A stretch of 37,406 bases of DNA, from positions 1 to 37,406 of the forward strand of contig JAUWSG010000007.1 in NCBI GenBank assembly GCA_030610155.1, given 5' to 3'. A program made the position numbers and the translations under genes. Source of the stretch: Gammaproteobacteria bacterium (GTDB lineage Bacteria > Pseudomonadota > Gammaproteobacteria > SG8-11). The notes beneath the pieces were generated by a model, which saw nothing but the letters and a program-made list of their open reading frames with translations, did no database searches and was not told the origin of the DNA. This document shows positions 9,181 to 37,406 of the stretch, piece after piece; position 1 is the stretch's first letter, and each line of letters starts with the position of its first letter.

Positions 9181-11220
9181 TTGAATAAGAAAGTAAATTT
9201 ATTTTTTCCTGTGTTAATACTGTTTTCGCAGATATTTTTGTCGCAGGCATATGCAGAGAGTGTGACACTGAACCTGAAAGGGGCTGATATTAATGCCGTT
9301 ATCGGGACAGTGGCAGATATCACTAACAAGAATTTTATTGTTGATCCGCGGGTAAAAGGCAAGGTGACAATAATTTCTTCCCGCCCGATGAATGAGAAAG
9401 AAATTTATCAGGTCTTTTTATCCGTGCTTGAAGTGCATGGATTTACCGCCGTGAAGGTAGGTAAAATTATAAAAATTCTGCCGGATGCAGATGCCAAGCA
9501 CAGCGCAATTCCGGCCTTGCCTGCTAACAGGACCGGAAAAGGTGATGAAGCGGTCACAAGAGTGATCGAGATTGAGCATGTGACCGCTGCGCAACTGGTG
9601 CCGATTCTCAGGCCCCTGGTACCACCTCAAGGACATCTTGCGGCGTATCCTGCTTCCAATATGCTGATTATCTCGGACCGTGCCGCCAATATTAATCGCC
9701 TGGTCGAAATTATTAACCGTATCGACCAACCAACCAGTGGTGAGATCGAGTTTGTTCAGTTGCAACATGCTGCAGCGTCTGATGTGGTCAGGGTCCTGAA
9801 CAGTATGCAGCAACAACGTAAAAAGGATGCTAAATCCAGTGCGCCTATACTCGTTGCGGATGAACGAACTAACAGTATATTAATTGGTGGAGAAAAAGCA
9901 CGACGTTTGCAATTACGCGCTATTATTGCCCATCTGGATACGCCTTCTGAAACAGTGGGTGATACTCATGTTATCTATCTGCGTTATGCAAAGGCGGCTG
10001 ACCTGGTGCCGGTTTTAACCGGGGTGCAGCAATCCCAGGCAAAATCATCCAAGACGGGTGCGATAAAAGGAGGCGTAAAAGCAAGGACATCAGCCAGATC
10101 ATCACAGCAAAATTCCCCATTCAGCATACAAGCCGATGAAAGTACCAATGCGTTGGTGATCACGGCCTCTCCGGGTATTTTCAGATCCTTGCAGCAGGTG
10201 ATCAGTAAGCTCGATGTGCGACGCGCGCAAGTAATGGTGGAGGCGATTATTGCTGAAGTGTCTATGGGTACTCAAGGGGCCCTGGGGGTTGAATGGATTG
10301 CGCTTGATCGTGATTCAGGAAATACACCTGCAGCCGCAACAAATTTTAACAATGGATTAACGAACATTGTCGGTGCGATAGCCGGCGGCACGGGTGCCGC
10401 CGGCGCGACTTTACCAACAGGTGCTATATTAGGTGCCGGGTCAATATCAAAGACCGGACTCAGTTTCGCCGGTTTATTAACTGCACTTAAGACAGACGGA
10501 TCGACCAATGTTTTGTCGACCCCCAATCTGGTCACACTGGACAATGAAGAGGCCGAGATGTTTATTGGTCAGGAAGTCTCGATTCCTACTGGCAGTTTCA
10601 CCAGTGCAACAAGCGATTCAACTGATCCGTTTACCACTTTCAATAGACAAAAAATTGGTTTGACATTAAAGGTCAAACCCCAAATCAGTGAAGGTGATGC
10701 TGTTAAACTGGAGGTTGATCAGTCTATTCAAGGTATTATTGCCGGTTCAGCGGGACAGAATGATTTGCAAACCAGTGAAAGATCGGTCAAGACAACGGTG
10801 ATAGTGGATGATGGCAAAGTACTGGTGCTGAGTGGTTTGATTAGAGACGATGTGCTTGAAACTGAATCGAAAGTACCTTTTCTGGGCGATATTCCTGTAT
10901 TGGGTGCCTTGTTTCGCTCCAAATCGACGGATGAGAAAAAAATCAATCTGATGATATTTCTGAAGCCGACGATTTTGCGTGATGCCAACAAAGGGTTAGA
11001 GCTGACGCAAAGTAAATATGACTTTATCCGCGGGAAACAATTAGAGATCCAGGATAAGGGTATCTCTTTTATAGCTGATGAAGATTTGCCTGTCCTGGAA
11101 ACGTTTGAAGAATACCTGGATTTACCACCGCCTTTCGAAGGAGAAAAAGGGAGCGTGAATGTACCTCCTGGCGGGGTAAGTAATCCCGGTAATGCCGCTG
11201 CTCCCGCTAATGAAGAATAG
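9181..11220 (+). CDS. gspD: Type II secretion secretin GspD
   Basis: A 679-residue outer-membrane secretin that forms the exit channel. It has a signal peptide with a likely cut after AYA (residue 25), then the N0 domain (LKGADINAVIGTVADITNKNFIVDP), repeated N1-N3 domains (for example HLAAYPASNMLIISDRAANI and ILVADERTNSILIGGE) and the secretin core ending with the family motif VPFLGDIPVLGALFRS (from residue 565). A Gly/Ala-rich loop lies in the core. The start is a TTG at 9181 with GAGGTTAAGG just upstream; the next ATG would remove the signal peptide. The C-terminus is Pro/Gly/Asn-rich. gspE follows after 17 bp. Confidence 0.97.
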   Translation: MNKKVNLFFPVLILFSQIFLSQAYAESVTLNLKGADINAVIGTVADITNKNFIVDPRVKGKVTIISSRPMNEKEIYQVFLSVLEVHGFTAVKVGKIIKILPDADAKHSAIPALPANRTGKGDEAVTRVIEIEHVTAAQLVPILRPLVPPQGHLAAYPASNMLIISDRAANINRLVEIINRIDQPTSGEIEFVQLQHAAASDVVRVLNSMQQQRKKDAKSSAPILVADERTNSILIGGEKARRLQLRAIIAHLDTPSETVGDTHVIYLRYAKAADLVPVLTGVQQSQAKSSKTGAIKGGVKARTSARSSQQNSPFSIQADESTNALVITASPGIFRSLQQVISKLDVRRAQVMVEAIIAEVSMGTQGALGVEWIALDRDSGNTPAAATNFNNGLTNIVGAIAGGTGAAGATLPTGAILGAGSISKTGLSFAGLLTALKTDGSTNVLSTPNLVTLDNEEAEMFIGQEVSIPTGSFTSATSDSTDPFTTFNRQKIGLTLKVKPQISEGDAVKLEVDQSIQGIIAGSAGQNDLQTSERSVKTTVIVDDGKVLVLSGLIRDDVLETESKVPFLGDIPVLGALFRSKSTDEKKINLMIFLKPTILRDANKGLELTQSKYDFIRGKQLEIQDKGISFIADEDLPVLETFEEYLDLPPPFEGEKGSVNVPPGGVSNPGNAAAPANEE

Positions 11221-11237
11221 GCTATGAAGGTTAGATA

Positions 11238-12779
11238 ATGGAGCTGACACAAGACAAGCTGTCGCCACACCAGGACAATCCTGCGCCTGATCTGGAATCC
11301 CGTCCATCCAAATCAAAACATTTGCCATTTGCATTTGCGAAGCGGCATGGTGTGCTCATTGAAGAAAATCAGGATGAGAAAGTAGTGATCTTGTGTAAAC
11401 GGGGAATGTCGACGCCAGTCCTGTCTGAAGTCAGGCGCTATCTGGGTGTGCCTGTCGCATTAAAAGTCATTGATTCCGAGGAGTTTGATGTCCGGCTACA
11501 GCAAGCCTATGAGCTGGGTGGCAATCAGGCGATGGATATGATGGACGATCTGGACGATGAGGCAGATCTAAATCAGGTTGCACAGGAACTTGCCGAGCCT
11601 GAAGATCTGCTTGAGAGCGAAGATGATGCCCCCATCATTCGTTTAATCAATGCTTTGTTAACCCAGGCGATAAAAGAAAACGCGTCAGATATCCATGTCG
11701 AGTCTTTTGAATCAAGATTGGTGGTTCGCTTTCGTGTTGATGGTGTGTTGCGTGAGGTACTTGAACCTAATCGTGCGTTGGCGCCGTTAATCGTTTCCAG
11801 AATTAAAGTGATGGCGAAGCTGGATATTGCGGAAAAACGTTTGCCCCAGGATGGACGAATATCCATTCGCATCGCCGGTCGTGCTGTTGATGTGCGTGTC
11901 TCGACGATACCAACAGGACAGGGTGAGCGGGTTGTATTACGTTTGTTAGACAAACAGGCAGGTCGATTGAACCTCGAACAACTTGGTATGGAAGCAGGTT
12001 CACGGGACTTGTTTGATAAATTAATTCATCGTCCTCATGGCATCGTTCTGGTGACGGGACCAACCGGTTCAGGTAAAACGACAACACTGTATGCCGGTCT
12101 TACACGTATCAATAACAAAAAACGTAACATTATGACGGTGGAAGATCCTATCGAATATTATCTGGACGGGATAGGACAAACAAATGTCAATACAAAGGTT
12201 GATATGACATTTGCACGTGGCTTGCGCGCCATACTCCGCCAGGACCCGGATGTTGTCATGATAGGTGAAATCCGGGACCTGGAAACTGCTGAAATTGCAG
12301 TGCAATCAAGTCTCACCGGACATCTGGTTTTATCCACATTGCATACCAATAGTGCAGTGGGCGCGGTCACAAGATTGCGAGATATGGGGGTTGAACCTTT
12401 TTTGTTGTCTTCGACTCTGATTGGTGTCCTGGCACAGCGGCTGATTCGCAAACTCTGCCCCCATTGCAAACAACCTTATCAGCCGAATGAGGTGGACCTG
12501 GAAAATTTCGAACTTGATAAGGGTGAGGCTCTGGAAATTTTTCGTGCGGAGGGTTGTGAGCAATGTAATTTCCAGGGTTATATTGGACGCACCGGCATAT
12601 ATGAACTTGTTCTGGTCGATGAAGAGATGCGAACCATGATTCATGATGGTGCCAGTGAACAGGAACTAGAGGCACATGCCCGTAAAAAAACGGGCAGTAT
12701 TAGTGATGATGGTGTGCGCCTGGTGTTGGCGGGAGAGACCACGCTTGAGGAAATATTACGGGTGACGAGAGAATCATAA
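11238..12779 (+). CDS. gspE: Type II secretion ATPase GspE
   Basis: A 513-residue cytoplasmic ATPase that powers pseudopilus assembly. It has an N-terminal GspL-binding type domain, Walker A GPTGSGKT (274-281), Asp box region around MTVEDPIEY, Walker B VVMIGEIRD (339-347), a His box (LSTLHTNSA) and the zinc-binding tetracysteine domain of GspE (CPHC 407/410 and CEQC 440/443). All key residues are present. The ATG at 11238 has a GAAGGTTAG stretch upstream and follows gspD after 17 bp. A palindromic element is inserted between its stop codon and gspF. Confidence 0.98.
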   Translation: MELTQDKLSPHQDNPAPDLESRPSKSKHLPFAFAKRHGVLIEENQDEKVVILCKRGMSTPVLSEVRRYLGVPVALKVIDSEEFDVRLQQAYELGGNQAMDMMDDLDDEADLNQVAQELAEPEDLLESEDDAPIIRLINALLTQAIKENASDIHVESFESRLVVRFRVDGVLREVLEPNRALAPLIVSRIKVMAKLDIAEKRLPQDGRISIRIAGRAVDVRVSTIPTGQGERVVLRLLDKQAGRLNLEQLGMEAGSRDLFDKLIHRPHGIVLVTGPTGSGKTTTLYAGLTRINNKKRNIMTVEDPIEYYLDGIGQTNVNTKVDMTFARGLRAILRQDPDVVMIGEIRDLETAEIAVQSSLTGHLVLSTLHTNSAVGAVTRLRDMGVEPFLLSSTLIGVLAQRLIRKLCPHCKQPYQPNEVDLENFELDKGEALEIFRAEGCEQCNFQGYIGRTGIYELVLVDEEMRTMIHDGASEQELEAHARKKTGSISDDGVRLVLAGETTLEEILRVTRES

Positions 12780-12784
12780 AAAAG

Positions 12785-12840
12785 ACAGAGGAAAGAGAAC
12801 AGGGAGCAGGGTAAAAAAATCAAAGGAAAGAGAAAGCTCT
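12785..12840. repeat. Purine-rich repeat family C, short copy
   Basis: The stretch starting AGAGGAAAGAGAACAGGGAG directly after gspE shares AGAGGAAAGAGAA and GGGAGCAGG with the inverted repeat after gspF (14356-14472). It looks like a partial or decayed copy. Confidence 0.5.
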
Positions 12841-12842
12841 TC

Positions 12843-12976
12843 GTCATTCCGGCGCAGGCCGGAATCCATCGATGATGACAGGGACGATGTGCGACAATTG
12901 TTATGCGTAGTGGGAAGTAAGGTAAATATAGAGGGTGCAGTGGTAGCCTGGATTCCGGTATACACCGGAATGACGG
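12843..12976 (+). repeat. Palindromic repeat family B, copy 1
   Basis: A 134-bp element. The left arm is GTCATTCCGGCGCAGGCCGG and onward to AATCCA; the right arm is TGGATTCCGGTATACACCGG followed by AATGACGG. Each arm is itself palindromic (ATTCCGG...CCGGAAT) and the arms are inverted relative to each other. The interior shares AGGGTGCAGTGGTAG with copy 2. It has no coding capacity, so it resembles REP/dRS3-like or MITE-like non-autonomous repeats. It separates gspE from gspF. Confidence 0.88.
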
Positions 12977-13135
12977 GCATTGTTTGCGCTCAGCACTACA
13001 CTATTTAGTATTTGGACACTACAGGCACGCAGGAAAGACGGAAGATTAATCTGTTTTTTCTTGTGTTAAGTGTCATTCAGGTGAGGAGTCAGAAATCATC
13101 ACCTGATATTGGAAGATAGGAACTCACTACTATAT

Positions 13136-14353
13136 ATGGGCGCATTTGAATATACAGCATTGGATGCCAAAGGGCGTGAGACGAAAGGTGTTCTGGAAGG
13201 GGATACGTTTCGCCAGATACGTCAAAGTCTGCGTGAGCAGGGCATGGTGCCGTTGTCTGTTGAAGAAGTGCAACAGCGTGAGGAGCGGAGCAGCCAGCAA
13301 AGCGCATTATTTCGCAGAGGTGTCAGTGCGACTGATCTGGCATTAATTACCCGTCAGCTGGCAACGTTGGTGCGTTCCGGCTTGCCTGTTGAAGAAGCAC
13401 TACGTGCTGTCTCTCAGCAAACTGAAAAGGCACGGCTGAAAAGTATGCTCGTCGCCGTTCGCTCAAGAGTAATGGAAGGCCATGCATTGGCCGCTGCATT
13501 GGGTGATTTCCCGCATGTATTTCCTGAGCTCTATCGTTCAACTGTTGCAGCAGGTGAACAGTCCGGTCATTTAAATGTAGTGCTCGATCGTCTTGCAGAC
13601 TATACCGAGTCAAGACATCAGTTAAATCAAAAAATGATGTTAGCGTTGATTTACCCTCTCTTGTTAACGTTAGTGGCTATTGGTGTTGTGGTTGGATTAT
13701 TGGCGTATGTCGTGCCACAAGTTGTATCCGTGTTTGATAATGTGGGTCAATCACTTCCCGCCCTTACTGTCGGTTTGATTACAGTCAGTGATATTGTGCA
13801 TGACTACGGATTGCTGATGTTTTTTATAATTGTCGTGGCTGTTCTTGTATTTAACTATTTGATGCGTTTTGAAACTGCGCGTTTTCAATTTCATGGAATT
13901 TTACTGAAAGTCCCTTTGGTTTCTCGTCTTGTAAGGGGCCTGAATACCGCGCGATTTGCACGTACTTTCAGTATTCTTGCGGCCAGTGGTGTGCCTGTAC
14001 TGGATGGCTTACGCATTTCGGCGCAGGTGATTGAGAATTTACCCATGCGACAGGCGGTCGACAAGGCTGCCCGCAAAGTCCGCGAAGGCACTAATTTACA
14101 TACAGCGTTGGAGGCCAGCGGTTATTTTCCGCCGATGATGCTTCACTTGATTGCCAGTGGTGAAGCCAGCGGTAATCTTGAAGAAATGCTGGAACGGGCG
14201 GCAATCAGCCAGGAAAGTGAGATGGAGACCTTGCGCGGTGCATTGCTTGGCATTTTTGAGCCGGTTATTATCCTTGTCATGGGCGGGATCGTGTTGGTGA
14301 TCGTCATTGCCATATTATTACCCATTTTCGAACTCAATCAGTTGGTACAGTAA
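13136..14353 (+). CDS. gspF: Type II secretion platform protein GspF
   Basis: A 405-residue polytopic inner-membrane protein, the usual GspF length. It starts MGAFEYTALDAKGRETKGVLEGDT, as GspF proteins do, and has two GspF cytoplasmic domains (about 60-165 and 265-370; the second includes FARTFSILAASGVPVLDGL). Membrane segments lie near 169-195, 223-243 and 375-400. The ATG at 13136 is preferred over a TTG at 13109 by family length, though the ribosome site is weak. It lies 356 bp after gspE because of the inserted repeat. No gspG-N genes follow; the next gene is a nucleotide cyclase. Confidence 0.96.
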   Translation: MGAFEYTALDAKGRETKGVLEGDTFRQIRQSLREQGMVPLSVEEVQQREERSSQQSALFRRGVSATDLALITRQLATLVRSGLPVEEALRAVSQQTEKARLKSMLVAVRSRVMEGHALAAALGDFPHVFPELYRSTVAAGEQSGHLNVVLDRLADYTESRHQLNQKMMLALIYPLLLTLVAIGVVVGLLAYVVPQVVSVFDNVGQSLPALTVGLITVSDIVHDYGLLMFFIIVVAVLVFNYLMRFETARFQFHGILLKVPLVSRLVRGLNTARFARTFSILAASGVPVLDGLRISAQVIENLPMRQAVDKAARKVREGTNLHTALEASGYFPPMMLHLIASGEASGNLEEMLERAAISQESEMETLRGALLGIFEPVIILVMGGIVLVIVIAILLPIFELNQLVQ

Positions 14354-18576: not shown

Positions 18577-21500
18577 ATGAAAAACCTGAAATTATTTTTA
18601 TTCTTTATATTTTTCATGTCCGGTTTTTCGGGGCTTATTTATGAATCTATCTGGAGCCATTATTTAAAACTGTTTCTTGGGCATGCTGCTTATGCACAAA
18701 CGCTCGTTATTGCGATTTTTATGGGTGGCCTGGCTTTAGGTTCGCTTGTATGCAGTAAATATTCATTGCGCTGGAAAAATGTTCTGCTGTTGTATGCGCT
18801 TGCCGAAGGCATTATTGGCCTGTTTGCACTCGGTTTTCATAACGTATTTGTTGCATTTACCTCTTATTCATATAATGAGGTTATTCCCGCCCTGGGATCG
18901 CCTGCATTGGTCACGCTGTATAAATGGACGACTTCAAGTCTTTTGATTCTGCCGCAATCCATTCTTCTGGGAATGACTTTTCCCTTAATGAGTGCCGGTA
19001 TTATCCGCTTGTTCCCACGAAAACCGGGTGAATCACTTTCTGTTTTATATTTTACCAATAGTTTTGGCGCTGCGATTGGTATTTTGGTGAGTGGTTTTTT
19101 CCTGATAAGAAGCCTGGGTCTTCCAGGATCAATGACAGTGGCCGCTGTGATGAATATCATTATTGCCGTAGTTGTTGGTGTAACGATATACCTGTTGCGT
19201 TCGACTGTGTTGCCGGGTGATGTACAGCAAGATATTGATGTGTCGCATGAAGGAGCAGGAGTAAAGGCCGATGCTGCGTTGGCAACGGACAAAGAATCAT
19301 CTGTTGCTTCCAGATATCTTCTTATTATTGCCTTTGTCACGGGTCTTGCCTCATTTGTATATGAGATATCCTGGATTCGTATGTTAAGCCTGGTGTTAAG
19401 CAGTTCGACCCATGCATTTGAATTAATGTTAAGTGCGTTTATTTTTGGTCTGGCATTTGGCGGTTACTGGATAAAACGACGAATAGATCAACTGGAAAAT
19501 CCTGCAAGATTTCTGGCGGTGATTCAGATTGTGATGGGCATGTTTGCCTTAAGTACACTCATTTTATATAACCACACATTTGATTTTATGCAGTCAATAC
19601 TGCAGGTCCTGTCCAGAACGGAAGAGGCTTATGGTGTTTTTAATTTTTCCAGCCATTTGATTGCACTTGCAATTATGTTGCCAACAACTTTTTGTGCGGG
19701 AATGACCTTGCCACTGATTACCTATACTTTAATCAGGCAAGGAAATGGTGAAAAGAGTATTGGTGCTGTTTACGCCAGTAATACCCTGGGTGCGATAGTC
19801 GGTGTGTTTTTCGCCGTTCATATCGGTATGCCACTTCTGGGTTTACAGTATGTTGTCTCTTTTGCTGCGGCACTGGATATTGCGCTGGGCCTGCTCCTGC
19901 TCTGGTATTTGAGTACGTCTGTAAACAAGACAAAAGTATCCTACGTGATAGCAGGGTGTATCGTCATATTTATATCAGTTAATCTGTTAACAAATTTTGA
20001 CAGCTATAAAATGGCCTCAGGCGTTTATCGGCAGGGTAAATTAATCGATGCCGAAAAAGTGCAAATCAAGTTCCATAAAGACGGTAAGACAGCGTCAATT
20101 GATTTGCTGGAATATGCAAACAATTTATTGTCAATCAGAACCAATGGTAAATCAGATGCCGCGATAAATATGTCACCCGATAATCCGGCCAGTCGGGATG
20201 AAGCAACCATGGTCCTGGCAGCAGCAGTACCGCTTGCATTAAAACCGGATGCGAAGACTGTCGCAAATATTGGCATGGGGTCGGGCTTAACAGCCCATAC
20301 CTTGCTCACGGCCCCCTGGCTGGAAACTGTCGACACGATTGAGATTGAACAGGCCGTAGTCGATGCGGCACAGGGATTCAGGCCGCGCGTCGAGCTGGTA
20401 TACAGTGACCCGAGAAGCCATATCCATATCGAAGACGCGAAGACTTTTTTTTCTTCCCGCAATAAACAATATGACATTATCGTCTCGGAGCCTTCGAACC
20501 CCTGGGTAAGTGGTGTATCAGGACTTTTCTCTGATGAGTTCTATCACATTATCAAGCGTTATATGACTCGTGATGGCCTGTTGGTCCAATGGCTGCAACT
20601 TTACGAAATTGACATTAATCTGGTCGCGTCCGTCATGAAAGCATTCTCACAGAATTTTTCCGATTATGTGGTTTATGCTTCTGATGAAAATAATATTTTG
20701 ATCGTCGGCAAAAAAGAAGGTGTGATGAATGCGCCTGATTTTCGAGTGTTTGAGGAATATAAGCTGGCAAAAGAGCTTAATATTATTTCAGTCAATAACA
20801 ACCAGGATTTCAACTTGCATAAAGTTGGCAGTAAAAAAGCGCTGGATCCTTTTTTCAATTCATTCCGTGTGCCGGCTAATTCTGATTATTACCCGGTCCT
20901 GGATCAGAATGCGGCGAAAGCCCGATTTTTGGGTTTAAATGCAGAAGATGTGGTGAAGCTGGCTAATGCGCCATTACCGATTATTGCGCAACTTGAACAG
21001 GATGTTCAACAACAGGGTGGTACACAGACGACATACAATCCCTATTTTATGAAGTCGGTCGATTCGGGCTACGCTATTGCGATCCGGAATTTTGTTATGC
21101 AAGGCCGTCCCGGGGAGAATGATCTACCGATTCCTGAAGATGTGCGTAAGGATTTGCAATATATCAAGACTATTTTTAATCAATGTGATTCAGTCGCTGA
21201 GTCGGAAGGCATGATTGACAGCTTGTTGAATATTGCGGTGACAACAATCCCTTACTTGTCAGCTGAGGAATTGTCGCGCTTATGGCAGCAGCTTCAAATC
21301 GATGCATGCGCTGACAACATGACGGCTGAGCAAAACCAGTGGGTCATGTTAATTAATGCAATAAGTCATAGAAACAATGAGAGAACCAGGCAGATATCGG
21401 TACCTTTGCTGGCGGCTCAGAATCCGGCCAATGTGATGCGATTTGGCTATTTATTAATGGCAGGCATGTTGAGTAACCTGGCATTGGATGATAGACAGTC

Positions 21501-21633
21501 CAGTCTCAAGCTTTGGAATCGCTATTCGACTCACATTTACGGTAAAAGCCAATTGGATATGTTGCTGTTGTTGTTGGCTGCGCATTCTTCCGGCGCTACA
21601 GACGCCTCAGGGGTAACAGGCGTAGCACCATAA
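18577..21633 (+). CDS. Polytopic membrane protein fused to spermidine synthase-like domain
   Basis: A 1018-residue protein. The first about 470 residues are many membrane helices in two related halves: GLIYESIWSHYLKL (near residue 19) and SFVYEISWIRMLSL (near residue 261) open them. A spermine/spermidine-synthase-like Rossmann domain follows, with the SAM/dcSAM loop NIGMGSGLT (564-572), the acidic strand TIEIEQAVVDAA and the SEPSNPWVSG motif (near 636). The last 250 residues are helical and not recognised. Such fusions are widespread in bacteria; a role in polyamine synthesis or export is not established. The ATG at 18577 opens directly into the first membrane helix. No polyamine gene is adjacent. 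Confidence 0.88.
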   Translation: MKNLKLFLFFIFFMSGFSGLIYESIWSHYLKLFLGHAAYAQTLVIAIFMGGLALGSLVCSKYSLRWKNVLLLYALAEGIIGLFALGFHNVFVAFTSYSYNEVIPALGSPALVTLYKWTTSSLLILPQSILLGMTFPLMSAGIIRLFPRKPGESLSVLYFTNSFGAAIGILVSGFFLIRSLGLPGSMTVAAVMNIIIAVVVGVTIYLLRSTVLPGDVQQDIDVSHEGAGVKADAALATDKESSVASRYLLIIAFVTGLASFVYEISWIRMLSLVLSSSTHAFELMLSAFIFGLAFGGYWIKRRIDQLENPARFLAVIQIVMGMFALSTLILYNHTFDFMQSILQVLSRTEEAYGVFNFSSHLIALAIMLPTTFCAGMTLPLITYTLIRQGNGEKSIGAVYASNTLGAIVGVFFAVHIGMPLLGLQYVVSFAAALDIALGLLLLWYLSTSVNKTKVSYVIAGCIVIFISVNLLTNFDSYKMASGVYRQGKLIDAEKVQIKFHKDGKTASIDLLEYANNLLSIRTNGKSDAAINMSPDNPASRDEATMVLAAAVPLALKPDAKTVANIGMGSGLTAHTLLTAPWLETVDTIEIEQAVVDAAQGFRPRVELVYSDPRSHIHIEDAKTFFSSRNKQYDIIVSEPSNPWVSGVSGLFSDEFYHIIKRYMTRDGLLVQWLQLYEIDINLVASVMKAFSQNFSDYVVYASDENNILIVGKKEGVMNAPDFRVFEEYKLAKELNIISVNNNQDFNLHKVGSKKALDPFFNSFRVPANSDYYPVLDQNAAKARFLGLNAEDVVKLANAPLPIIAQLEQDVQQQGGTQTTYNPYFMKSVDSGYAIAIRNFVMQGRPGENDLPIPEDVRKDLQYIKTIFNQCDSVAESEGMIDSLLNIAVTTIPYLSAEELSRLWQQLQIDACADNMTAEQNQWVMLINAISHRNNERTRQISVPLLAAQNPANVMRFGYLLMAGMLSNLALDDRQSSLKLWNRYSTHIYGKSQLDMLLLLLAAHSSGATDASGVTGVAP

Positions 21634-31874: not shown

Positions 31875-31965
31875 GTTTATGAGGAACTGAGAGAAAATCG
31901 ATTTTTATCGAAAAACTTTATGAAATTATTTGCCAACGTAACCTGGGATTATTTCTCCTGACATC

Positions 31966-32100
31966 GTCATTCCGGCGTATGCCGGAATCCAGGCTACCAC
32001 TACACCCTCTATAACCACGTTACTTTCCACGACTCATGACTGTCGTACCATATTCATCTCTGTCATCATCCCTGGATTCCGGCATGCGCCGGAATGACGG
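31966..32100 (-). repeat. Palindromic repeat family B, copy 3
   Basis: A 135-bp element in the orientation opposite to copies 1 and 2 (interior reads CTACCACTACACCCTCTATA). Its arms are GTCATTCCGGCGTATGCCGG and TGGATTCCGGCATGCGCCGG, each followed or preceded by the AAT of the terminal motif. It is followed after 30 bp by copy 4. Confidence 0.88.
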
Positions 32101-32130
32101 TTTTAGTTAGCACTTAACACTACTAAGCCC

Positions 32131-32268
32131 GTCATTCCGGTGTATACCGGAATCCAGGCTACCACTACCCCCTTTTTAACCACCTCACTTCCAGCTATCT
32201 AATGTTTCAAATGTTTCATGCCTCGACCCGTCATCATCTCTGGATTCCGGCATGCGCCGGTGTGACGG
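32131..32268 (-). repeat. Palindromic repeat family B, copy 4
   Basis: A second element in the same orientation as copy 3, starting GTCATTCCGGTGTATACCGG. Its distal arm is decayed: the GGAATGACGG end reads GGTGTGACGG. The 30-bp link between copies 3 and 4 contains the TTAGCACT-like flank also seen around copy 2. Confidence 0.8.
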
Positions 32269-32784
32269 AGTGACGGGAAGTAAGGAAAAATTACCCATAA
32301 ATTATCCCAAGTAAGGAGGCCATTTCTAAATATCTACACATCAGCCCATCATGAATTTGTGACGCAGTTCAAACTTCATTAATCCTGATTAAATTTCCTT
32401 TAGAATCCGTCCAACAGATAAGTTGATTTGTTTTGCAATTTAAATGTGACTTAAGTCCTTAGATTTTCATAAAATAGTTCAAAGGCAGTGCTGTATATAA
32501 TGTTCTGTTATTTAAAAAATATTTTTAGTAATAATTCAATGTAACTGTGAGAGTCATCACATCCCTCTTCAAGTCCAAATGTGAATATCGAATCCAATCA
32601 AAGATGATCAAAAACCAATTTGGGAATTTTTTACCAATATGATTTTTGTGACGAAAGTAGAAGTTTTCAGTCTTTGAGATCAGATAGGGTTAGGGCGAAT
32701 GCAAAACATTGAGAAATGGTTTTGTGATTCTAACGAACTCAGCCGATATTCGGTCGTGGTGTATAACAAACTCAGGTGTGGGCT

Positions 32785-33987
32785 ATGGACATGAAAAAAA
32801 CATTTATAAATTCAAATATCGTTGCCAGGAGTAAGACAAGTTTATTGCTGGCGGTTTTACTGTTGATTGGATCCTCTGTTACTTTTGCCAGTTCGCGTGA
32901 TCAGGCAAAAAGAATTCATGACAGATTAGCGGCAACGCCACCGTCTGAAGCAGTGCTTTCTTCCATGGCGGTAAAAATTAATGCAGGTAATAGCATAGGC
33001 GCCGCGATGGAAGCAATGGACAACCCGGGCTTCTACAATATTTTTCTGAAGAATTATATTACGCCCTGGACCAATAAGGCCCAGACAGTCTTCATGCCTT
33101 TGAATGACTACACGGCGACGGTGATTGGTATTATCCGGGATGATGCTTCATTCAAGGATATATTGACTACGGATGTCGTTTACGTTGGTGCGAATGGTTT
33201 AGGCTTAACCGCTTATGCTCATACTGATAATGCACATTACCAGGAGCTGGAAGACAGTGGCGTTAACCTGGGCAATCCTGCCAACCTGGTCGCGGTTGCA
33301 CAATCCGGTTTGCCAGGAGCGCAGATAAACGCTAACCAGGCGGCGGGCATATTAACATCACGTGCTGCGGGCGAGGCATTTTTATTTGCGGGTACCAACC
33401 GCGCGATGTGGGAGTTCACTGCCAAAAATCATCTGTGCACCGAAATGCTGGACCTTAATGATCCCTCACGCACACCTGACCGGGTTCAACAGGATGTCAC
33501 TCGCAGCCCGGGTGGTGACAGCACTATCTTTCTGAACTCCTGTGTTGGTTGTCATGCAGGTATGGATCCTCTTGTACAGGCTTTTGCTTATTATGAGTGG
33601 GATGCCGATCTTCAAAGAGTGGTTTATACCGATGGTGTCGTACAGGCCAAGTATCTGAATAACGCGACAACTTTTCCACTAGGGTATATCACCGAAGATG
33701 ACAACTGGGACAATTCCTACTGGCGCTCTGGTAAGAACGCCCTGCTTGGCTGGAGAGGTGCAAATTCCAGTGGTAATGGTGTGCAAAGCCTGGGGCAAGA
33801 AGTCGCTTCAAGCAGAGCATTTTCCACTTGCCAGGTACAAAAAGCATTCAAGCAGGTTTGTTTCCGTGATCCTGCCAACCCTGCAGAACGCACAGAAGTG
33901 GATCGTATCGCGGATGTGTTTGAGGCGAACAACTACAGCATGAAACGGGTTTTCGCTGAAGTCGCAAGCTTCTGTATGGGTAATTAA
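32785..33987 (+). CDS. Exported protein with a single c-type heme motif (PSCyt/DUF1588-like CxxCH-xx-MDP)
   Basis: A 400-residue protein with a signal peptide (about 1-35, ending TFA). It contains one heme-attachment motif CVGCH (Cys253, Cys256, His257) followed by AGMDP and then AYYEWD, an arrangement like the CxxCH-x-x-MDP motif of cytochrome-like domains found with DUF1592/DUF1588-type proteins. Other cysteines (HLCTEM, FSTCQVQKAFKQVCF, ASFCMGN) may form disulfides. The rest is not recognised. The ATG at 32785 has AGG 8 nt upstream; ATG 32791 is an alternative. It is the first gene of a three-gene cluster, 103 bp before the LamG lipoprotein gene. Confidence 0.75.
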   Translation: MDMKKTFINSNIVARSKTSLLLAVLLLIGSSVTFASSRDQAKRIHDRLAATPPSEAVLSSMAVKINAGNSIGAAMEAMDNPGFYNIFLKNYITPWTNKAQTVFMPLNDYTATVIGIIRDDASFKDILTTDVVYVGANGLGLTAYAHTDNAHYQELEDSGVNLGNPANLVAVAQSGLPGAQINANQAAGILTSRAAGEAFLFAGTNRAMWEFTAKNHLCTEMLDLNDPSRTPDRVQQDVTRSPGGDSTIFLNSCVGCHAGMDPLVQAFAYYEWDADLQRVVYTDGVVQAKYLNNATTFPLGYITEDDNWDNSYWRSGKNALLGWRGANSSGNGVQSLGQEVASSRAFSTCQVQKAFKQVCFRDPANPAERTEVDRIADVFEANNYSMKRVFAEVASFCMGN

Positions 33988-34090
33988 TGTTAGCGGTGTG
34001 AAAGGGTTTTTTGTCAGGCCTTTAGTGGAATAGCTTGTCGAGGTTCTGATAAAGATAAGTCCAGAATAAGTAGGTACCAGGAGTATTACA

Positions 34091-36298
34091 ATGATAAAGC
34101 AAACTAAAAATTCAAAAATTTTAAAGGCGGAGAATGGCCAGTCCTGTATTAGCAGTGATGTTCAGCCATTCAGCCTGAGTCGGGTTCTGGTAATGGCCGC
34201 GGCATTAACCTTAGCAGCTTGTGGTGGTGGCGGTGGTGGTGATCTGACTGCAGTCAATGCCGGAACAGGTGGAACAGGTGGAACCGGTGGCGGCACAGGT
34301 GGTGTTGCAACTCAAACCGCATTTGAAACCACATTGTATCCCGTGGTGGTTAATCGTTGTGGTGGTTGTCATGCCAGTCAGGGCCCGGGTGGTACACCTG
34401 ACTTTGCACATGAAACGGTAGCCACAGCTTTAAGTGTTGTCGAATCGAATACGCTGGCGAACCTGGGTAATCCCGCCAACTCGCGTCTGGTTACCAAGTT
34501 GACGCTTGAACTGCATCGCTGCGGCACAGATTGTCAGGCATGGGCAGATGAAATTCGCCTTGCCATTGAAGCCTGGTCAGGCCTGGTGGGCGACACGGGT
34601 AGCGGTTCTGGTGTAACGGGTGCTGACATCGTCAGCTCAGCACTAACACTTGCTGATGGTGCTCAAAATGCAGGTGCAGGTCGTGTTGAGAATTCCATTA
34701 TCGCCAAGTATGAGTTCAAGGCCGGTACAGGTACAACCGCATTTGACACAAGTGGTGTTGCACCCGCATTGAACCTGGAGTTGAGCGTGGATGTTAACTG
34801 GGTTGAAGGCCAGGGTATTGACATCACAGATCCGAATAATGCCGGGGTCAGCAAGGCTGTCGGTACACAGGCGGATAGTAAAAAGTTGTACGACATGATC
34901 GCGGGCCCCGCTGGATCCAAGGAATATACGATCGAAGCCTGGATTATCAATGCGGCAACCGATCTTGCTGGTCCTGCGCGTATTGTCAGTTATTCACAGG
35001 ATTCTGCCAATCGTAATTTCACCATGGGGCAGGTGACCGATTATTATAATTTCCGCAACAGAAGTGATTTGACAGGTAATAACGGTTCAAATCCGGCTCT
35101 GGAAACAGATAATAATGCCGCTGATTTAAAAACCGAATTACAGCATGTTGTGTTTACCTTTGATCCTGTAAATGGTCGTAATATCTATATCAATGGTGGA
35201 AAACCAGCATACGATGTAGCATCAGACCCTTCTGTTCCTGCAGATATTTCCAACTGGAACGAAAACTATACTTTCCTTTTAGGTAATGAAGTTAACGTTG
35301 ACCGTCAGTGGTTAGGCAAGATGTTTTTCGTCGCGATTCATGACCGTGCTTTGACACCTGCCGAAATATTGCAAAATACCCTGGCAGGTACAGGTGAGAA
35401 GTTCTCTTTGCAGTTTGATGTCAGTGCCTTGCTGGACGCAACAGGTGCGACGACGTCTACTATCAGCATGGATGTCTCTGAGCTTGACGCATTCAGCTAT
35501 GTATTTGGCACACCTGTGCTGACAACTGACATGGCTGTCCCCAACGTTCCTGTCAAAAATATCAGGATCGCTGTGAACGGTAATATCCCTGCTACCGCAC
35601 AAGCGTTCCGTAACGTGGACGTGACAGCAACTTCATCGCCAATGGAATTATCACGACTGGGTGCCGTCATACCGAAAGATATGGGCCCTGAGTCTGATCA
35701 GTTCTCACTGGTATTCGAAGTGCTGGGTAATAACACTAACGTTGTGATCGAAGCGGTCCCGGTTGCTGTAACGGATACCAGCGTCAATGACCCTTCACCA
35801 GAACATGGTCTGCGTACCTTTGAGCAAATCAATAATACGATGGCCACGTTGACCGGTGTTAGCAAGAATGTAACCAGTGCGACTTTCAATGGTCTTAGAC
35901 AACAGTTACCAGGCGCACCTAATTTGGGTTCATTTGTTTCCGCTCATCAAGTGGGTGTTGCCAAACTGTCACTTGAATATTGTGATGCATTAGTCGAAAG
36001 CGGCTCATTACGCACTGCCTTCTTTGGTAGCTTTGAGTTCAATTCTGCGGTGACCACTGCTTTTAGTAATCAGACCAAGCGCAACATTATTATCAATAAT
36101 CTGGTTAATAAAATGGTAGGCACCAATCTCGATAGCCAGCCGACTATGGCTGATATACAGCCTGAACTGGATATGCTGATCGATCAGTTGACGCTGGGTT
36201 GTAATGTGGCGGCTGATTGTGATGCAGCGCGAACCAGAACAGTAGTAAAGGCAGCTTGTGCAGCGGTATTGGGTAGTGCTGCGGTCTTGATCCAGTAA
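34091..36298 (+). CDS. Lipoprotein with c-type heme motif and LamG-like domain
   Basis: A 735-residue predicted lipoprotein: lipobox LAAC with Cys44, then a poly-Gly and GTGG-rich linker. A heme-attachment motif CGGCH (Cys90, Cys93, His94) lies in a small cytochrome-like domain (about 75-165, with a second pair CGTDC). Residues about 195-435 look like a LamG/concanavalin-like jelly roll (IIAKYEFKAGTGTTAFDTSG, YTIEAWIINA, HVVFTFDPVNGRNIYINGG, WLGKMFFVAIHDRALTPAEI), a fold that often binds glycans or proteins. The C-terminal 300 residues are unassigned. AGGAG lies 7 nt before the ATG. The n-region of the signal is long. It is probably surface- or periplasm-facing. Confidence 0.8.
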   Translation: MIKQTKNSKILKAENGQSCISSDVQPFSLSRVLVMAAALTLAACGGGGGGDLTAVNAGTGGTGGTGGGTGGVATQTAFETTLYPVVVNRCGGCHASQGPGGTPDFAHETVATALSVVESNTLANLGNPANSRLVTKLTLELHRCGTDCQAWADEIRLAIEAWSGLVGDTGSGSGVTGADIVSSALTLADGAQNAGAGRVENSIIAKYEFKAGTGTTAFDTSGVAPALNLELSVDVNWVEGQGIDITDPNNAGVSKAVGTQADSKKLYDMIAGPAGSKEYTIEAWIINAATDLAGPARIVSYSQDSANRNFTMGQVTDYYNFRNRSDLTGNNGSNPALETDNNAADLKTELQHVVFTFDPVNGRNIYINGGKPAYDVASDPSVPADISNWNENYTFLLGNEVNVDRQWLGKMFFVAIHDRALTPAEILQNTLAGTGEKFSLQFDVSALLDATGATTSTISMDVSELDAFSYVFGTPVLTTDMAVPNVPVKNIRIAVNGNIPATAQAFRNVDVTATSSPMELSRLGAVIPKDMGPESDQFSLVFEVLGNNTNVVIEAVPVAVTDTSVNDPSPEHGLRTFEQINNTMATLTGVSKNVTSATFNGLRQQLPGAPNLGSFVSAHQVGVAKLSLEYCDALVESGSLRTAFFGSFEFNSAVTTAFSNQTKRNIIINNLVNKMVGTNLDSQPTMADIQPELDMLIDQLTLGCNVAADCDAARTRTVVKAACAAVLGSAAVLIQ

Positions 36299-36349
36299 TA
36301 AGACAGAGCTAAAAAATAGTAACCTTGAGAAAAATGAGAGGAAGTAAAA

Positions 36350-37406
36350 ATGGCTAAGAATATAGAAAATAAACGTTACCTGGACTTTGATGAGCCATTA
36401 CGTCATGAAAATCACAAGCGGCCTGTTACTCGTCGAGATTTCATCGGACAGGGCCTGATGGCCGGTGGCGCCGCGGTGGTAGGACCAGCATTGCTGGGCA
36501 TGGTCGGATCAAACGCCTACGCGGCAGTGACCGAGGCGGATTGTGGCATCGTTGCCGGTGGTAGCGGCGGTAATGGCAAAGTGCCCTTTATTGCAGTTGA
36601 TTTATCCGGGGGTGCCAATATTGCCGGGTCCAATGTCCTGGTCGGCGGTCCTAATGGACAGATGGATTTCATTAGTGATGCAGGTTATGAAAAGCTGGGA
36701 TTACCAGCCGGTTTCATTCCGGGCAAGGATGCCAATACGATCAATACCGAACTTGGCATTGCCTTTCATGGTGACAGTGCGATGCTCAGAGGTATTAAAC
36801 AGATGGCATCTGCTGACACCTTATCGAGAGTCAATGGCTCTGTAATCTGTGCGCGCTCCAGCAACGACACCAGCGACAACCCGCATAACCCGATGTACGG
36901 CATCTATAAAGCAGGTGCGGATGGTGACATTGTTTCATTAATCGGAAGCAGGAGTTCTGATTCTGGCGGGCGTTCTGTGGCACCTGATTCGATGATTGAT
37001 TTGAGCGTACGTCCCACAAAGATCTCCAGTGGTAACGATGCACGTGGCCTGGTGGACACCGGTAAACTGGCGCAGTTGTTACCCGACGGTGACGATGCGA
37101 AAAACGTGATGCAGGCAATTGAACGTATCAGTGAAAAGAAACTCACCAGGATCCAGGAAGATGCGGTGCTCGAAAAACTGATTCAATGTGGATATCTTGA
37201 AAGCACAGTTGCCGCATCCGGTGATCCGACACGCACCGATATTAATGCCGATGCTGATTTGAACGCAGTATTCACAGACGCAGGCAGAGATATCAGTGAT
37301 TTTCAGAAAACCGCTGCCGTTTCCAAGCTGGTCGTGAATGGCCTGGCAGGTGCCGGTACAATTCAGTTTGGTGGTTATGATTATCACAACAGTAGCCGGT
37401 CAACCG
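36350..37406 (+). CDS. Tat-exported DUF1501-like protein (partial, runs off the window)
   Basis: At least 352 residues; the 3' end lies beyond the window. The N-terminus has a twin-arginine signal (TRRDFIGQG, Arg28-Arg29, then a hydrophobic stretch and a likely cut at AYA, residue 58), so it is exported folded. The mature part begins with a Gly-rich FIAVDLSGGANIAGSN segment and contains AFHGDSAMLRGI and a SNDTSDNPHNP stretch. The layout is reminiscent of DUF1501-type secreted proteins (alkaline-phosphatase-like fold), but this is a tentative match. A GAGGA site lies 5-8 nt upstream, and the gene follows the LamG lipoprotein by 51 bp, suggesting one operon. Confidence 0.7.
   Translation, partial: MAKNIENKRYLDFDEPLRHENHKRPVTRRDFIGQGLMAGGAAVVGPALLGMVGSNAYAAVTEADCGIVAGGSGGNGKVPFIAVDLSGGANIAGSNVLVGGPNGQMDFISDAGYEKLGLPAGFIPGKDANTINTELGIAFHGDSAMLRGIKQMASADTLSRVNGSVICARSSNDTSDNPHNPMYGIYKAGADGDIVSLIGSRSSDSGGRSVAPDSMIDLSVRPTKISSGNDARGLVDTGKLAQLLPDGDDAKNVMQAIERISEKKLTRIQEDAVLEKLIQCGYLESTVAASGDPTRTDINADADLNAVFTDAGRDISDFQKTAAVSKLVVNGLAGAGTIQFGGYDYHNSSRST

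Follow-up and report, generated by a model that had tools for sequence, protein, structure and literature searches.

The window, a stretch of 37,406 nucleotides from a gammaproteobacterial contig, ends in three genes (g1, g2 and g3) on the same strand, separated by gaps of 103 bp (g1/g2) and 51 bp (g2/g3). As read from the sequence, each gene product has a different export route, with a Sec signal on g1, a lipobox on g2 and a Tat signal on g3. This agrees with the preliminary description, whose coordinates and signals we re-read. The features of the cluster are as follows.

32785..33987, + strand: g1, open reading frame (ORF) for a 400-aa protein, predicted to be Sec-exported, mono-heme and of PSCyt3/PSD2 type
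32785..32886 (end approximate), + strand: g1 Sec signal peptide, LLLAVLLLIGSSVTFAS, from sequence reading; relatives have a hydrophobic stretch ending in AxA
33541..33555, + strand: g1 CVGCH, heme c attachment motif, then AGMDP; C253, C256 and H257 are invariant in a 60-row alignment
33772..33966, + strand: g1 C-terminal PSD2 (DUF1585)-like region, from the PSD2 match
34091..36298, + strand: g2, ORF for a 735-aa lipoprotein with a c-type heme domain, a LamG domain and a conserved C-terminal domain
34211..34222, + strand: g2 lipobox LAAC (Cys44), from sequence reading; most relatives have a lipobox-like motif
34358..34372, + strand: g2 CGGCH, heme c attachment motif; C90, C93 and H94 are invariant in a 22-row alignment
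34916..35368, + strand: g2 Laminin_G_3/concanavalin-like domain, PF13385 over residues 276-426, E 2.3e-14
36350..37406, + strand: g3, ORF open at the 3′ end, truncated by the contig end; Tat-exported, with a predicted alkaline-phosphatase-like fold
36431..36448, + strand: g3 twin-arginine motif RRDFIG (TRRDFIG); R26-R27 (numbered as in relative L093) are invariant in 62 rows
37370..37387, + strand: g3 GGYDYH, putative metal-site Asp/His; D342 and H344 (L093 numbering) are invariant in 62 rows

The three genes are best explained as one operon. Neither gap contains a terminator-like site, and Shine-Dalgarno-like sites precede all three genes; the good ribosome sites initially reported hold for g2 (AGGAG) and g3 (GAGAGGAAG), while that of g1 (CAGGTG) is weaker. 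The upstream neighbours (adenosine deaminase, nucleosidase-like) look like housekeeping genes, and in the surroundings that we read we recognised neither an LPMO gene nor a glycoside hydrolase gene. A short palindromic repeat, cattccggcgtatgccggaatccagg..., occurs in several copies between the adenosine deaminase gene and g1 (31960-32280) and resembles a dispersed element of the REP type. Further away, the window carries a gene for a 1018-aa protein that combines an MFS-like part with a spermine synthase domain (18577-21633), as well as the type II secretion genes GspD, GspE and GspF (9181-14353), a system that could take folded exported proteins to the surface.

Domain make-up of the three proteins

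The PSD2 match of the window g1 (E 0.0098) scores 16 bits, below the Pfam cut-off of 25.8. Among 16 aligned members of the family, PSD2 was found in 12 (best relative E 1.6e-7), PSCyt3 in 8 and PSCyt2 in 3. Profile-profile comparison using hhalign aligned residues 36-392 of g1 to proteins found via the PSCyt3 family (97.4% probability, E 1.1e-11, 298 columns, spanning columns 34-386), with the CxxCH of g1 falling on the CxxCH of the PSCyt3 proteins. On the strength of the Pfam matches in relatives and this motif-on-motif alignment, g1 is, judged by sequence homology, a shortened and divergent planctomycete-type cytochrome-domain protein (PSCyt3/PSD2), homologous over most of its length. It begins at the PSD part and lacks the usual N-terminal cytochrome domain; g2 carries a cytochrome domain instead. 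A fold search with the predicted g1 model (pLDDT 88.5) returned no PDB relative (best E 2.8), a PDB sequence search with the g1 profile gave no credible match, and a plasmid search with g1 gave no match.

Our analysis bore out the placement of a LamG domain on a lipid-anchored g2, given the LAAC lipobox and a PF13385 score of 54.3 bits against a cut-off of 27.6. Laminin_G_3 was present in all 22 aligned g2 members, accompanied by weak Cytochrome_CBB3 matches in 9 and Haem_bd in 4, and a g2 profile (A5) reached sialidase lectin-like chains (E 6e-4). A role in contacts between proteins is likewise possible for LamG_3 domains. Each of the two window proteins carries one CxxCH (CVGCH in g1, CGGCH in g2), as first described, and both motifs are conserved; covalent heme on g1 and g2 is putative, as suggested by the motif. 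The number of CxxCH motifs in g2 varies, with three in the closest relative (L093, whose g1 is 71% identical to that of the window), two in most others, and one in the window and a minority. We also considered g2 as a relative of the rubber oxygenase RoxC, which was rejected at 11.7 bits against a cut-off of 900. A genome of the same genus (G001, 68% complete assembly), in which neither g1 nor g3 was matched, has frames of ~1,100 aa in which the g2-type cytochrome region is present more than once (contigs C26 and C83; L069).

The part of g3 within the window encodes 352 aa, the contig end cutting the gene, while relatives have ~500-550 aa. Its Tat signal matches TAT_signal_seq (TIGR01409) above the cut-off, and D79, D171 and H177 are invariant in addition to the Asp/His pair of GGYDYH. 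Apart from matches of the Tat-signal type, no credible Pfam family, DUF1501 included, was found in 16 aligned members, and a PDB sequence search with the g3 profile gave no credible match. We modelled the full-length g3 relative from L093 (pLDDT 78.9). Using Foldseek, we found that the 50 matches listed all belong to the alkaline phosphatase superfamily (best E 2e-4, with whole-chain TM-scores of just 0.15-0.37), among them sulfatases, alkaline phosphatases, phosphoglycerate mutases and lipoteichoic acid synthase. The model of this relative lends tentative support to an alkaline-phosphatase-type fold for g3, with low TM-scores for the whole chain; its metal site and nucleophile are putative and unproven.

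Aligned to DUF1501 with hhalign, g3 gave E 0.00057 with the Tat signal and E 0.028 for the mature parts without it. Several DUF1501 proteins from related genomes have GGWDTH or GGFDTH where g3 has GGYDYH. On two contigs (G014:C16 and G040:C70, the PSCyt3 match of the latter being below the cut-off), PSCyt3-type genes precede DUF1501 genes in the same orientation, which is the order of g1 and g3. DUF1501 (PF07394) presumably has an alkaline-phosphatase-type fold, going by its Pfam clan. Elsewhere in the window genome (L195, G000:C204, 6011-10586), a DUF3570 gene adjoins a DUF1501 gene and a gene for a 533-aa lipoprotein without CxxCH; we tested whether this lipoprotein is a g1 relative that lacks heme and rejected the idea.

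Conservation and gene neighbourhood of the trio

In a survey of 94 gammaproteobacterial genomes, nearly one per family, g1 was matched in 18 and g3 in 20, with full-type g2 at the same places. Reading of the contigs showed that in almost every genome with g1 the three genes are direct neighbours with their order kept, so that the trio stays together across many families; the apparent exceptions are contig ends or frames missed by a simple ORF caller. When one genome per species was scanned, at least 538 g1 relatives came up, of which the best 80 were kept as loci. As these were chosen by g1 similarity alone, the choice does not favour any neighbours. The preliminary description had made its case depend on homologues being adjacent and on the CxxCH motifs being conserved, and both hold: the three genes occur together and in order in 65 of the 80 loci (the other 15 being mostly short contigs or cases where a wrong overlapping frame was picked), exactly one CxxCH is present in every labelled g1 from these best 80 loci (74/74), and the motif is invariant in the 22-row g2 alignment. 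Gaps in collinear loci are mostly within ~50 bases of zero, although ORF starts were set mechanically and overlaps are approximate. The best 80 loci come mostly from Gammaproteobacteria, including Pleionea strains (records L116, the two-heme-type locus of Pleionea mediterranea DSM 25350, and L142), with some from Deltaproteobacteria/Myxococcota metagenome-assembled genomes (MAGs). In one deltaproteobacterial (Myxococcota) MAG, a 310-aa ORF with 11 CxxCH motifs lies directly 5′ of g1 (L096, 1880-2809).

A tree of 60 g1 proteins split 47 from 13 (100/100), the window g1 being among the 13. A gene for a protein resembling the hydrazine synthase alpha subunit (HzsA-like) lies beside g1 in 43 of the larger group and in none of the window group. 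This neighbour is the unexpected part of our finding. We defined long sister loci as those with a two-heme g2 and at least 17 kb (n = 34). All 34 contain the HzsA-like gene, and further neighbours are a beta-barrel protein (c6) in 33, DUF3570 in 32, SH3 in 28, TlpA in 27, c10 and TPR proteins in 16 and ApbE in 9. In L098, L103, L107, L116, L145, L150, L155 and others, a divergent operon comprises HzsA-like, SH3, beta-barrel, TlpA and DUF3570 genes. The HzsA-like protein (c3) matches the middle domain of hydrazine synthase alpha (PDB 5c2v, E 1.5e-8), and 45 of 49 copies have two C-terminal CxxCH motifs. Both kinds of locus, window-type and two-heme, occur together in one genome (G040).

Searches of the window genome by family and by protein gave no HzsA-like gene (85% complete assembly; no positive control). 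DUF3570, ApbE, thioredoxin and DUF4266 genes are absent from beside the window trio, DUF3570 being present elsewhere in the genome. The [ST]GA[ST] flavinylation motif is missing from most DUF3570 proteins of the sister loci (12 of 42 have one and 3 have two), and we rejected a flavinylated DUF3570 as a general partner because the motifs are mostly absent. DUF4266 was not found in the sister loci, the tested c10 protein having no Pfam match. A search of 55 genomes for DUF1552 (HXXSHH) gave no match, with controls equally silent.

A candidate redox assembly and its alternatives

Starting from the observed gene order, export signals, heme motifs, g1-PSCyt3/PSD homology and LamG domain, we tentatively propose that the trio is a cell-envelope redox assembly of planctomycete-type cytochrome parts, which passes electrons as it processes a ligand bound by LamG; although we favour this reading, it falls a little short of being probable. 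The lipid anchor of g2 would hold it at the membrane and display the LamG domain, whose ligand is probably a glycan or another polymer. The c-hemes of g1 and g2 would form a short electron path, with g1 as the conserved PSCyt3/PSD partner contributing its own heme. Exported folded via Tat and perhaps metal-bound, g3 with its conserved Asp/His residues could be a hydrolase-like or substrate-handling partner. Electrons would move to or from the periplasm, and the ligand held on LamG would probably be processed. We infer that the three proteins form a complex, as well as its ligand, the direction of electrons and catalysis by g3. Linkage of the sister-lineage trio to the redox proteins HzsA-like (mostly diheme) and TlpA supports such an assembly, and Cellvibrio Cbp2D offers an analogy, joining a carbohydrate-binding module to cytochrome domains able to supply electrons to a polysaccharide oxidase. 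The housekeeping look of the upstream genes, the lack of a recognised LPMO or glycoside hydrolase gene nearby, the alternative role of LamG_3 domains and the low whole-chain TM-scores of g3 weigh against it.

It is less likely, with about one chance in four by our estimate, that the trio is a respiratory conduit, in which electrons exit via the periplasmic and outer-surface hemes of g1 and g2 to an extracellular acceptor, LamG holds the parts together or onto a surface, and additional carriers are supplied in the sister lineage by the HzsA-like, TlpA, beta-barrel and DUF3570 proteins. The HzsA-like gene in every long two-heme locus, along with beta-barrel and DUF3570 genes in nearly all, fits this explanation, as does the finding that DUF3570 is a substrate for flavinylation by ApbE in Chlorobium (Meheust et al. 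2021, PMC8238504), with ApbE close by in 9 of the 34 loci. However, hemes are few and come without a porin-multiheme conduit, most DUF3570 proteins lack [ST]GA[ST], and the window trio has no such neighbours, nor was an HzsA-like gene found in its 85% complete assembly. Moreover, a conduit leaves the conserved phosphatase-like fold unaccounted for.

Alternatively, the trio may build or modify a surface polymer or appendage, with g3 acting as a phosphatase-, sulfatase- or transferase-like enzyme and the hemes serving as redox sensors or structural parts. We consider this improbable. The sulfatases and lipoteichoic acid synthase among the g3 fold matches, and the TPR and c10 proteins downstream in roughly half of the long sister loci, are in its favour, but the heme motifs, invariant in two of the proteins, and the link to HzsA-like and TlpA genes indicate redox chemistry. 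Finally, accidental adjacency or a chance CxxCH has next to no probability, as the neighbourhood survey, with its kept gene order and invariant motif, refutes it.

Returning to the redox assembly, we raise as a possibility, less likely than the assembly itself, that an undescribed envelope oxidoreductase has the trio as its core and is completed in the two-heme lineage by the divergent HzsA-like/SH3/beta-barrel/TlpA/DUF3570 operon, often with ApbE, TPR and c10. If so, two operons would together encode a redox machine of at least eight parts, which would be widespread in Gammaproteobacteria and have a chemistry without a match among characterised systems. The strict HzsA-like linkage in one lineage places ‘hydrazine synthase alpha’ relatives in a physical setting that lies outside nitrogen chemistry.

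Relation to known systems

We found no published description of the trio or of the two-operon locus, in a search mostly outside subscription journals that does not establish absence from the literature, and none of the papers found assigns a function to PSCyt/PSD or DUF1501 proteins. Among the closest known systems is DUF1501 (PF07394), which shares with g3 the Tat signal, GGxDxH and a gene position downstream of a PSCyt3-type gene. It differs in that none of the 16 aligned g3 members has a Pfam match and that the mature-part profile match is not significant. Thus, the resemblance to DUF1501 noted at the outset stands for the motif, the listed fold matches and the gene order seen elsewhere; by sequence comparison we regard g3 as DUF1501-like, membership of the family being unproven.

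The sister-lineage c3 resembles HzsA (PDB 5c2v) in its middle domain and has mostly two C-terminal CxxCH motifs; c3 is not beside the window trio, and no hydrazine synthase beta or gamma subunits were recognised beside it in the sister lineage. HzsA-like homologues of this sort are thought incapable of making hydrazine (PMC12758564). The sister loci share DUF3570, thioredoxin-like and sometimes ApbE genes with the ApbE/DUF3570/thioredoxin/DUF4266 flavinylation clusters, but DUF4266 was not found in them and most flavinylation motifs are lacking; the main text of the Chlorobium study mentions neither DUF1501 nor LamG.

Cbp2D of Cellvibrio japonicus comprises CBM2, the X158, X183 and X132 cytochrome domains and DUF1587. 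When isolated, one of its cytochrome domains reduces LPMOs (PMC8981238). Like the trio, it is exported and combines a carbohydrate-binding module, c-heme domains and a planctomycete-type domain. Unlike the trio, it is a single polypeptide with another CBM and a quinone-binding YceI domain, whereas the trio contains neither YceI nor CBM2 and no LPMO was seen alongside.

The PSCyt1-3/PSD1-5 proteins (DUF1549, DUF1585, DUF1588) of Planctomycetes and Verrucomicrobia share the PSCyt3 heme motif and PSD2 end with g1. They are multi-domain single chains, whereas the trio divides the parts between g1 and a lipid-anchored g2 (heme plus LamG), occurs in Gammaproteobacteria and Myxococcota and, in the window g1, falls below the Pfam cut-offs. 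In Verrucomicrobia, PSCyt/PSD proteins occur combined with Laminin_G_3 and with further binding modules, and PSCyt2 and PSCyt3 genes adjoin two families of unknown genes (He et al. 2017, PMC5615132). The initial remark that no characterised system of this exact composition is known had missed this precedent. The trio is a three-gene Proteobacterial version of the combination of PSCyt/PSD with Laminin_G_3 that is known in Verrucomicrobia, and this compact form (for example in Pleionea, L116 and L142) offers a simpler target for establishing the function of these cytochromes than the paralogue-rich Planctomycetes and Verrucomicrobia.
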